12,092 nt of DNA from an uncultured Oscillospiraceae bacterium (GTDB taxonomy: Bacteria > Bacillota > Clostridia > Oscillospirales > Oscillospiraceae), in the NCBI GenBank assembly GCA_934565775.1, contig CAKTIN010000058.1:1-12092 (forward strand), read 5' to 3'. This document shows positions 738 through 10,533 of this stretch, in pieces. The position numbers and the translations under genes were made by a program. The notes beneath the pieces were generated by a model that worked only from the letters and a program-made list of their open reading frames with translations, made no database searches and had not been told where the DNA came from. How positions within the stretch are numbered: position 1 is the stretch's first letter; the number at the start of each line of letters is the position of its first letter.

Positions 738-814
738 TAGGTTTTTACTTATTCAAGGAAAGTTCATAAATCCCCCGCCGGGAGCAAGCGCAGATTGCAG
801 TGACTGAGTGCCGG

Positions 815-960
815 TTCAAAACGGGAAAAGCCCTTGATTGCAAGCCTTCTCAAAATGGGCAAGCTTACAATCCCTCAGTCAAAAATCAAAGATTTTTGTG
901 TGGTGCGCTTGCCACCGGCAAGCGTCCTATTTTGATCCGCAGTGGGTTGCACCCGCCCTT
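815..960 (-). repeat. Arm copy 1 of element L
   Basis: This is a direct repeat of 1332-1475 at roughly 90% identity, with a 40-bp block identical in both (841-880 and 1357-1396). It carries a perfect hairpin, CGCTTGCC-ACC-GGCAAGCG (906-924). The end facing the core reads CCCTTTCCACAAGGGAGCC, half of the hairpin present complete in the element R arms. Confidence 0.8.
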
Positions 961-1331
961 TCCACAAGGGAGCCTTTGGCCTTCTGAAATTTCCGAACGT
1001 TTATGCACTCGCCTTGCCATATACTACACCATCGGCTATCTTCTGCACCATCTTGTTATGTCTGGCACCATCGGGCGGCATGATGCACATCTTTTAACGC
1101 AACTGCTGTCAAATTCTGCCCGGTGCATTTCGGGCGTGTGCGCGGCCAAGCGCTGCCGCGTGTCGAAGCGGATACAGAGCGACGCAGCGGCTTACAAAGC
1201 TTGCCGGACAATTCCAGCGTACCGCCGCCTGGGCCCTGGGTCCGGGCCGCAGCCCGGTGGGCTTTCGGCCCTTTCCCCCAGAGGAAAGGGCCCCGCCGGG
1301 GGCAGCGCAGGTAGCCTCGCTCAAGCGTCGA

Positions 1332-1475
1332 TTCAAAATAGGAAAGGCCTTGATTGCAAGCCTTCTCAAAATGGGCAAGCTTACAATCCCTCAGTCTAAA
1401 ATTAAAGATTTTTGTGTGGTGCGCTTGCCACCGGCAAGCGTCCTATTTCGATCCGCTGCGGGTTGCGCCGCCCTT
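1332..1475 (-). repeat. Arm copy 2 of element L
   Basis: This is a direct repeat of 815-960. It contains the same CGCTTGCC-ACC-GGCAAGCG hairpin (1422-1440) and the same TTACAATCCCTCAGTC block. Its core-side part (1332-1396) overlaps the segment alignable with element R; the outer part (about 1397-1475) is specific to element L. Confidence 0.8.
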
Positions 1476-8986: not shown

Positions 8987-9015
8987 AGTCGGTTCTCCTT
9001 TTGAAATTTGGCATC

Positions 9016-9024
9016 ATTATAACA
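9016..9024 (-). promoter_or_regulatory. Extended -10 promoter of the permease operon
   Basis: The minus strand reads TGTTATAAT, a TGn-extended perfect -10 box, about 30 bases upstream of the permease ATG. The -35 position (TCCCGC at 17-base spacing) is poor, so the TG extension probably carries recognition. The transcript leader would be only about 20-25 nt. Confidence 0.6.
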
Positions 9025-9084
9025 CAGATTTTTCTCTCGCGGGAGATTTTACAAAAATTTTACCTGGGAAAATTCGAACGGATG

Positions 9085-9093
9085 TGTTATAAT
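9085..9093 (+). promoter_or_regulatory. Outward extended -10 promoter motif, plus strand
   Basis: TGTTATAAT recurs here on the plus strand within TGTGTTATAATG, the same 12 bases as the minus-strand promoter at 9013-9024. No good -35 is seen (TGGGAA at 17-base spacing). The next plausible gene on this strand starts at 9826, beyond element R. It may be the original promoter of that operon or drive transcription of the repeat itself. Confidence 0.5.
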
Positions 9094-9185
9094 GGGTCTG
9101 TATAGGGTATGCGGCCCCTCCGCCCCGCAGACCAAGGGCCCCGGCAAGGGCGTCGATTCTGCGGAAGGGTCCGGAGATTTTGGAG

Positions 9186-9264
9186 AGTCAAAGGCTCCCT
9201 TGTGGAAAGGGAGCTGTCAGCCGCAGGCTGACTGAGGGATTGTAAGCTTTCCCATTTTGAGAAG
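9186..9264 (+). repeat. Arm copy 1 of element R
   Basis: This is a direct repeat of 9677-9755. It holds two adjacent hairpins: GCTCCCTT/AAGGGAGC (9194-9201 with 9207-9214) and GTCAGCC-GCA-GGCTGAC (9216-9232). It ends with GAGGGATTGTAAGC and a TTTTGAGAAG block, both also present in the element L arms. Confidence 0.8.
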
Positions 9265-9676
9265 ATTCGCAATCAAGGGCTTTCCCGTTTTGCATCAGCG
9301 CTCAGTTGAGGCGACCTGCGCTGCCCCCGGCGGGGCCCTTTCCACTGGGGGAAAGGGCCGAAAGCCCACCGGGCTGCGGCCCGGACCCGGGGCCCAGGCG
9401 GCGGTACGGGTCAAGCGCCCGGCAAAACTTGTGAACCGTTACGTCGCACCGGCACTGTTTCGACACGCGGCAGCGCTTGGCCGCGCCCGCGCCCGAAATG
9501 CACCGGGCAAAGCCGGGGAGCAGCTGCACCGGGAGAAGTGCATCATGCCGCCCGATGGTGCCGGATATGACAAGATGGCGCAGTTTAGAACGAAAAATTC
9601 GCACAAATATGTGGAAATCTAAAGATTGTAATTCGTACGCACTCAAATCATTGCTGAAAAGTTCAAAATTTCAGAA

Positions 9677-9755
9677 AGTCAAAGGCTCCTTGTGGAATGG
9701 GAGCTGTCAGCCGTCAGGCTGACTGAGGGATTGAACGCTCCCCCTCTTTGAGAAG
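9677..9755 (+). repeat. Arm copy 2 of element R
   Basis: This is a diverged direct repeat of 9186-9264. The first hairpin is weakened (GCTCC/GGAGC), while the second is kept as GTCAGCC-GTCA-GGCTGAC with a longer loop. It lies about 70 bases before the small membrane-protein gene that leads the ruv operon. Confidence 0.75.
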
Positions 9756-9825
9756 CATTCCAGTGATTGGTACTTATGTGCCATTCGCATTTTTACAAAA
9801 TCCCCTTCTTTTGAGGTGAACTCTT

Positions 9826-10032
9826 ATGGACGAACAAACCAAATATTCCGAAGAGACCGCGCAGCAGCCCGCCGGGCAGCCCATCGCCCCGGACCCGGCG
9901 CCAGACCAGGAACCCCCGCTGGAGCACTACATCCCCCGCCCCCGGTGGCAGCTGGTGTGCGCCTGGGTTGCTCTGGTGCTGTTTCTGATCTTTGTAGCGA
10001 TGTGGTATTACGGCATCGCCCACAAATATTGA
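9826..10032 (+). CDS. Small single-pass membrane protein, function unknown
   Basis: I do not recognise a family. The 68-residue product has a hydrophilic, Pro/Gln/Ala-rich acidic N-terminus (1-38), then basic residues (RPRWQ, 38-42), then one hydrophobic helix (about 43-62) and a short tail ending GIAHKY. By the positive-inside rule the N-terminus is probably cytosolic. GAGGTG lies 7 bases before the ATG. Its stop is 3 bases before the ruvC start, so it is translationally linked to the ruv genes. The tight link suggests the frame is real; a connection to recombination is only guilt by position. Confidence 0.7.
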   Translation: MDEQTKYSEETAQQPAGQPIAPDPAPDQEPPLEHYIPRPRWQLVCAWVALVLFLIFVAMWYYGIAHKY

Positions 10033-10035
10033 GCC

Positions 10036-10533
10036 ATGCGCATTCTGGGCATCGACCCCGGCTATGGCACCACAGGCTTCGCCCTGCTGGAGGCCAACCG
10101 GGGCAATTTGCAGCTTTTGCAGTGCGGGGTCATTACCACGCCCCCGGGGCTGGACTTTCCCCTGCGCCTGGAGATGCTCCACCGGGACATGACGGAGCTG
10201 TTTGACACCGGAAAGCCCCGGGTCATGGCCATTGAGGAGCTGTTTTTCGGGCAGAATGTAACCACGGGCATCGGCGTGGCCCAGGCCCGGGGGGTCATCC
10301 TCCTGGCGGCGGCCCAGGCCGGGGTCCCGGTGTATGAGTACAAGCCCATGCAGGTCAAGCAGGCCCTGGTGGGCTACGGCAGCGCCACAAAGCACCAGAT
10401 GATGGACATGACCAAGCGGCTGCTCCATCTGGAGAAGCTGCCCCGGCCGGACGACGCGGCGGACGCCATTGCCATCGCCCTGTGCCACGGCCGGAGCGCC
10501 ACGTCCCTCCTGGCCCAGGCGCAGAACCAATAA
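10036..10533 (+). CDS. ruvC: Holliday junction resolvase RuvC
   Basis: This metal-dependent endonuclease cuts Holliday junctions symmetrically as part of RuvABC. Of 165 residues, it starts MRILGIDPGYGTTGFA and keeps all four catalytic acids: D7, E67, D140 and D143, in GIDPG, AIEELFF and PDDAADAIAIALCH. Length and motif spacing fit the family (E. coli uses D7, E66, D138, D141). No classical SD is seen upstream, in line with coupling to the preceding small gene, whose stop is 3 bases away. ruvA follows after 12 bases. Confidence 0.97.
   Translation: MRILGIDPGYGTTGFALLEANRGNLQLLQCGVITTPPGLDFPLRLEMLHRDMTELFDTGKPRVMAIEELFFGQNVTTGIGVAQARGVILLAAAQAGVPVYEYKPMQVKQALVGYGSATKHQMMDMTKRLLHLEKLPRPDDAADAIAIALCHGRSATSLLAQAQNQ

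Follow-up and report, generated by a model that had tools for sequence, protein, structure and literature searches.

A dispersed intergenic repeat of Oscillospiraceae with a covarying end hairpin, probably mobile DNA

A stretch of 354 bp occurs twice, in inverted orientation and 8 kb apart, in 12,092 nucleotides of DNA from an uncultured Oscillospiraceae bacterium (contig CAKTIN010000058.1; this whole stretch is called the window below). What kind of element is it? A sequence-only reading had proposed a structured RNA or a recombinase-recognised element, with selection on paired segments and their spacing. As that reading had claimed, the minus strand of 1043-1396 aligns to 9230-9583 over 354 nt without a gap and with 60 mismatches (83% identity; 40 transitions and 20 transversions); BLAST between the two flanking regions gave E = 6e-106. 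The reported clustering of the mismatches is real: the variance of their counts in 20-nt windows was unmatched in 10,000 permutations. The longest identical run is 44 nt (p about 0.01), and the reported stretch with two differences in about 90 bases lies at about 9313-9407.

The 354 bp mark the limits of the ungapped alignment and not the edge of an element. They join the edge of one repeat, here called F, to about 250 bp of another, here called H (Table 1). The 9230 (1396) end of the alignment falls inside the F repeat, and homology continues past either end, in segments that are disjoint or gapped. The locus holds more than one pair, in that F-type repeats in direct orientation lie on both sides of each H copy; both H copies of the window thus lie beside F, as the same composite. 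Genomes and loci outside the window are given by our handles (G and L numbers, respectively).

Table 1. Repeats and paired segments at the two sites in the window. Coordinates are those of the window.
Feature	Position	Strand	Remarks
H repeat, left copy	1052..1303	+	252 bp, 5' edge by eye; homologous to copies in G373, G407, G125 (2), G345 and G399
H repeat, right copy	9323..9574	-	252 bp, inverted relative to left copy
P1 long-range stem, 5' arm (CCA...GGCGGC), left copy	1068..1079	+	RNAalifold
P1 long-range stem, 3' arm (GCCGCCTGG), left copy	1224..1232	+	RNAalifold
Hairpin A (CCGGGC-CGCA-GCCCGG), left copy	1242..1257	+	inverted repeat seen in sequence
Hairpin A, right copy	9369..9384	-	mirrored from left copy via alignment
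Hairpin B, left copy	1253..1300	+	inner stem about 1267-1276/1283-1292, outer about 1253-1261/1292-1300; most covarying part
Hairpin B, right copy	9326..9373	-	inner stem in 9334-9359; mirrored from left copy
F repeat (CTCCCTTGTGGAAAGGGAG...CTGACTGAGGGATTG)	9191..9247	+	separate interspersed repeat, 57-bp core; the reported 354 bp begin with its end
Second F repeat, beyond right H copy	9668..9761	+	86% to 9177-9269; same orientation as 9191..9247
F-type flank adjoining left H copy	1343..1469	-	direct repeat with 827-953, 94%
Second F-type flank, beyond left H copy	774..1007	-	ends in apparent truncated H 3' arm (CCCGCCGGGAGC)

Pfam searches with ten proteins placed part of a PEP carboxykinase, Jag, YidC, RNase P protein, an SLH-domain protein, an ACPS-family transferase, a CitMHS-type transporter and RuvC-RuvA-RuvB in the window; a tRNA and tmRNA search returned none. 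The nearest named relatives of its YidC are from Oscillospiraceae and related Clostridia MAGs (47-51% identity), and the best-scoring genome found for this protein is G202, at 56% identity. The left H copy has the PEP carboxykinase gene and jag as its neighbours. The right one lies between divergent genes, with the transporter gene (8986, minus) on one side and, on the other, a short ORF at 9826 and then ruvC at 10036 (plus). We translated the 354 bp in all six frames and noted two overlapping long ORFs (800-1399, plus, and 9302-9646, minus). The ungapped frame does not mean that the stretch is coding, because the differences between the copies fall 22/18/20 on the three codon positions, a flat distribution without a third-position excess; we rejected a protein-coding element on this ground.

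No full-length match to the 354 bp was seen outside the window. It had no match in eight related genomes; among 400 genomes, nine had partial matches (two candidates scored per genome), and among 101 genomes, six had short matches (at most seven scored); for the full length these are weak negatives. Plasmids and phages gave no match, nor did viral contigs (two exact patterns) or GTDB r220 contigs (one exact 21-mer). In the search of the 400 genomes, a BLAST of the left copy against genomes of the family, three of the nine matches extend over 83-91 bp at 79-87% identity. On reading the matched loci, the similarity continued weakly across about 250 bp, and the copies at L075, L154, L160, L157 and L159 agree in length and islands.

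Eight H copies (two each from the window and G125, one each from G373, G407, G345 and G399) measure 242-256 bp, with 5' edges set by eye, and align end to end. They amount to seven independent copies, because those of G373 and G407 are near-identical and apparently occupy the same place; the five genomes outside the window belong to one genus. Consensus H sequences cut likewise are 250 bp for G086 and 272 bp for G224. The same architecture recurs, with long-range pairing between a 5' island and GCCGCC, then a GC-rich hairpin region, hairpin B, and the end CGCCGGAGGC. In the RNAalifold prediction from the eight copies, the long-range stem P1 joins the 5' island to GCCGCC, where the 3' module starts; pairs 27-32/183-188 are unchanged in all eight sequences, and pairs 21-23/190-192 vary yet remain paired in all eight. 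Hairpin A is one pair longer in G125, G345 and G399, with both arms extended together. The fold predicted for the G086 consensus contains it, but prediction from the window copies alone favours a competing pairing. A natural deletion variant of H occurs in G086 at L214: the middle domain is missing, the 5' island is retained, and hairpin B is present with different pairs.

A covariance model of the 87-nt 3' module of H (R1) matched the window at 1221-1303 (85.6 bits) and at 9323-9405 on the minus strand (86.0 bits). At E <= 1e-4 it matched at least 15 of 400 family genomes, a lower bound because 11 candidates were scored per genome. With 150 candidates scored in each, G224 had 46 matches, G086 29, G250 15 and G097 8; two weak antisense matches (E 0.005 and 0.0099) were left out of the counts. 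By eye, the G097 loci L175 and L186 seem to hold the hairpin end only. The complete 4.3-Mb chromosome of G086 carries at least 40 distinct copies of H: a DNA search in which 40 of 429 candidates were scored matched all 40, at 84-92% identity apart from the query's own place. For G086 we used a de-duplicated set of 40 rows, because a first alignment of 27 rows held at least two loci twice (L205/L212 and L208/L213). Seventeen of the 40 rows carry names from the DNA search only; the remaining rows were first found through R1, a model that selects for hairpin B in advance. H is thus short, non-coding, interspersed and present in many copies, as a miniature inverted-repeat element (MITE) is.

The sequence-only reading had looked to compensatory changes in gathered copies, scored with a covariance model; so tested, hairpin B shows them strongly. 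In the first set of eight sequences, four of the ten inner pairs showed two-sided changes. In a wider set (22 distinct sequences from 23 matches), all ten inner pairs had changed on both sides, all 220 inner-pair cells form standard pairs (two of them G.U), and no cell departs from the commonest pair on one side only. Over the 17-pair structure, 97.3% of cells were paired, against 41.5-60.5% in slid controls; the outer helix is weaker, at 93.4%. The wider alignment leans towards structure because it was fitted to the model; the slid controls and the raw sequences show that the pairing effect does not come from the fit. Within G086, 471 of 480 hairpin B cells were unchanged, three had two-sided and six one-sided changes, and none was unpaired; four of the six one-sided changes mend a consensus G.T pair. 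G224 holds three compensated variants of the hairpin B stem inside one genome, and its 28 copies, picked from the 46 R1 matches and hence pre-selected for hairpin B, gave 283 unchanged, 16 two-sided, two one-sided and seven unpaired cells out of 308. Among the single changes in hairpin B, four produced G.U, seven other mismatches and none A.C; the four G.U against no A.C are the one RNA-like sign. Hairpin B has been rewritten between and within genomes with pairing retained, and a palindrome with compensatory changes, such as characterizes REP and REPIN elements, is therefore present in H.

RNA stems tolerate G.U pairs, and selection on an RNA from a fixed strand would leave G.U well above A.C. 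Outside hairpin B, the pairs predicted on both strands in the 40 G086 copies had 61 G.U, 63 A.C, 101 other and 12 two-sided changes. The corresponding counts of G.U and A.C were 124 and 119 for pairs of the forward fold, 101 and 84 for pairs of the reverse fold, and 34 and 32 in the 17 rows from the DNA search alone. Mean divergence in G086 outside hairpin B was 0.098 at paired and 0.101 at unpaired sites. The divergence of H in this genome does fall into islands: blocks of 25 nt range from about 5% to 18% and the two hairpin B blocks stand at 2%, with an exact alternation that varies with the start position of the blocks. Inserted copies may not drift freely everywhere, because singletons are distributed non-uniformly along H (p = 0.006; p = 0.013 for shared variants). 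These results bear out part of the suggested selection on paired segments and spacing, in that the islands include the hairpins and the long-range stem, total length is similar among copies, and the compensatory changes of hairpin B are strong.

Genes around the G086 copies were called with a simple codon-usage script. All of the 20 copies examined (from at least 40) are intergenic, one of them overlapping a predicted start by 6 nt. Eight lie between convergent genes, 12 between tandem genes and none between divergent genes; of the tandem cases, six are oriented with and six against the genes. Each of the 20 adjoins the 3' end of at least one gene. Avoidance of divergent regions is not absolute, because the right copy of the window lies in one. 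At L154, the H copy shares about 105 nt with a predicted ORF that has no Pfam family. Pfam-named neighbours differ at all seven loci examined, that is, the two window pairs, a threonyl-type tRNA synthetase (L075), a phage-integrase-family recombinase (L154), PrmA and a FakA-like protein (L160), DnaB_2 and ZapA (L157), and a class I tRNA synthetase and an MCP (L159).

H keeps company with other repeats. Stretches of 55-57 bp that are 82-98% identical to F occur at several G105 loci and in G224, with partial or weaker matches in G172 and G265. The F motif AAGGCTCCCTTGTG..AAGGGAGCTGTCAGCC..GGCTGACTGAGGGATTGTAAGC was seen at 9191-9247 and 9668-9761 of the window and at L095, L097, L098, L102 and L126. 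By eye, the G105 and G172 loci have F followed by an apparent inverted partner (GATCCCCTCCGTCA...CCTCCCCTTGG); the sequence of F with its partner suggests a MITE of about 110 bp or more. In the window, 9177-9262 and 9668-9753 form a direct repeat at 86% identity, and the second F-type flank beyond the left H copy is supported by a match of 86-270 against 601-788 at 86.7%. The 94% match of the left F-type flanks points to a fairly recent local duplication; in both of them (1343-1469 and 827-953) the middle of F appears by eye to be replaced by about 75 bp (CGGGTGCAACCC...AAATCTTT). A second class of element has the hairpin B end (CTTTCGCCCCTTTC...GAAAGGGGCCCGCCGGAGGC) and another body, with hairpins around CCAATAGGGGGG...CCCCCCTGATTGG (by eye). 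It was seen at L143, L145, L147, L149-L153, L158 and L161, and several of these resemble long inverted repeats. A REP-like hairpin of the GTAG type (...CGCCCCTACG; loci L154, L160, L174, L185, L187, L197, L198 and L200) was noted by eye immediately upstream of many H copies in G125, G224 and G086. GTAG-type REP and MITE serve here as names for repeats seen in these loci.

Some G086 copies, among them those at L208, L277 and L306, lie within outer inverted repeats of about 40 bp (AGATGCAATCAT...CTTAGGCGGATAAGGCG), in units of 419-541 bp. Of the 40 copies, 14 have the 5' end, 18 the 3' end and five both, each scoring above the best of 120 shuffles; no clear target-site duplication was visible by eye at the five with both ends. 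With the G086 repeat as query, the surroundings of the window copies gave no such inverted end (best score 10, against a null maximum of 14), and scores stayed below the null maximum at nine other loci (in G373, G125, G345, G399, G250 and G224). We also considered Y1 transposases (RAYT, the REP type) as the mobiliser of H. The Y1 family PF01797 is present in three of seven H-bearing genomes and had no match in the other four as assembled. Neither the model nor BLAST found H within about 1.5 kb of the 11 PF01797 loci in those three, a result that gives the Y1 candidate no support. At one locus (L154:1824-2873), a gene of the phage-integrase family (tyrosine recombinase) ends 58 bp from a G125 copy of H, which is a lead.

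We consider H to be a non-coding, non-autonomous mobile DNA repeat of about 250 bp, MITE- or REP-like, that spreads between genes in Oscillospiraceae and whose end hairpin works as DNA; we put the probability of this reading at roughly 70%. Its dispersal in many copies, its clustering with other repeats and its balanced orientation fit a mobile element. That the pair instead arose by segmental duplication of a single intergenic region and is now decaying, its composition making it patchy by chance, is highly improbable. Two copies do lie within one window, with flanking repeats common to both sides; yet the islands recur with their order kept in five genomes of another genus, so that copies in other genomes already contradict a duplication, and both the clustering beyond 10,000 permutations and the covariation in hairpin B speak against it. 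The sequence-only reading had held that this is not a simple decaying duplicate, naming uniform divergence, random indels and no covariation as the contrary outcome; its view holds, as divergence is not uniform and covariation is present.

A multi-copy structured RNA, either trans-acting or a 3'-UTR element, whose fold is selected and whose copies are paralogous RNA genes, would account for the covariation of hairpin B, its G.U changes without A.C, the retention of the long-range stem in all eight sequences and the similar length of the copies. With none of the 20 G086 copies in a divergent region, read-through from a gene end is possible for each. We nevertheless regard this explanation as unlikely. 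Outside hairpin B there is no excess of G.U over A.C and paired sites diverge like unpaired ones, orientation to the tandem genes is even, and neighbouring genes differ between loci. Folding z-scores are only -1.2 to -2.1 over both strands of both copies, the minus strand of the right copy (-2.1) folding no worse than the plus strand (-1.2). A promoter-like site was found just outside H, at 1014-1042, and none within it. Against Rfam 15, no family reached the gathering threshold in the window, and none matched up to E = 1 in 700-1540. Below threshold, 11 related loci gave CsrC in L149 (E 3e-5), Atu_C7 in L142 (0.024) and MicX in L140 (0.083), the last two overlapping H. Less probable still is that H and F are elements of mobile origin now kept at gene 3' ends as transcript-end stabilisers or terminators, as proposed for some BIME and SPRITE copies. 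The 3' end of a gene adjoins every one of the 20 G086 copies, but no T run follows hairpin B, orientation is balanced and the right window copy lies between divergent genes. A terminator scan of 8990-9830 was empty, and in 700-1560 it gave five sites, of which the one inside H is a weak hairpin of five pairs on the minus strand (1290-1303). Of the two kinds of element originally suggested, the structured RNA is thus disfavoured as the thing itself; a recombinase-recognised element comes closer, but the search for Y1 transposases tied none to H.

If H is mobile DNA, it would be copied or cut in trans by a recombinase or transposase of the host, and this enzyme would recognise hairpin B with its CGCCGGAGGC foot as a DNA hairpin. 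Active copies would have to retain the hairpin and the islands, and the body of an inserted copy would drift under less constraint; in this proposal, conserved islands would therefore be left between diverged spacers. The inverted arrangement over 8 kb would be two insertions or duplicated composites, without a function of its own. Pairing in hairpin B persists with few intermediates, perhaps because a cognate enzyme selects for it or because replication switches template from one arm to the other; such switching may keep part of the pairing. In excerpts of one study, template switching is reported to create and maintain hairpins (PMC8794818).

The comparison with known systems draws on excerpts of the papers cited. 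Spacers of REPINs are described there as keeping their length and hairpin capacity, with compensatory changes common (PMC3116915). H resembles REPIN and REP sequences in being intergenic, multi-copy and palindromic, and in keeping length and hairpin capacity with compensatory changes (PMC3116915, same excerpts). It differs in structure, measuring about 250 bp and having a long-range stem besides several hairpins where a REPIN is a short doublet, and with respect to the Y1 (RAYT) partner, given the 11 PF01797 loci without H and the four of seven H-bearing genomes in which PF01797 was unmatched. ERIC sequences, thought to be a MITE, are intergenic and reach tens to hundreds of copies per genome in the excerpted descriptions (PMC10969869, PMC3116915). 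By description they are like H as intergenic repeats of high copy number, and are set apart by occurring in other bacteria and by a shorter length of 127 bp (PMC2759123, in excerpt). In excerpts of PMC3049150, BOX is modular, and pneumococcal repeats are described as clustering, as inserting into each other and as favouring sites between convergent genes. H clusters similarly with F and the GTAG-type hairpins, as BOX, RUP and SPRITE do in those excerpts; the terminal inverted repeats and target duplications given there for BOX and RUP (PMC3049150) were seen for neither window copy. With MITEs, H shares its shortness, lack of coding and high copy number, and some G086 copies sit in the 419-541 bp units with inverted ends; it differs in that neither the window copies nor the nine other loci showed the G086 inverted end. 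H need not be a REPIN or a MITE despite working alike, because the Y1 partner test fails and inverted ends occur in only part of the G086 copies.

Intergenic repeats of the same sort as H occur in many of the gut Clostridia loci that we read, and in titles and abstracts of the literature we found no earlier description of an H repeat in Oscillospiraceae. Tentatively, H may represent a new class of bacterial mobile repeat, in which the recognition hairpin is rewritten per lineage, both arms together, while the surrounding scaffold is kept. If this is true, either a recombinase diversifies together with the hairpin that it recognises, as a lock does with its key, or template switching from arm to arm holds the palindrome close to perfection; either way, the mobilising enzyme would be one not yet tied to any such repeat. 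Palindromic candidates in structured-RNA discovery are known to be ambiguous, according to excerpts of PMC8040213. Covariation such as that of hairpin B usually counts as proof of a functional RNA, but the remainder of H drifts as mobile DNA does. H thus calls for caution when structured RNAs are sought automatically in gut metagenomes, and it offers a test case for the way in which DNA palindromes keep their pairing.
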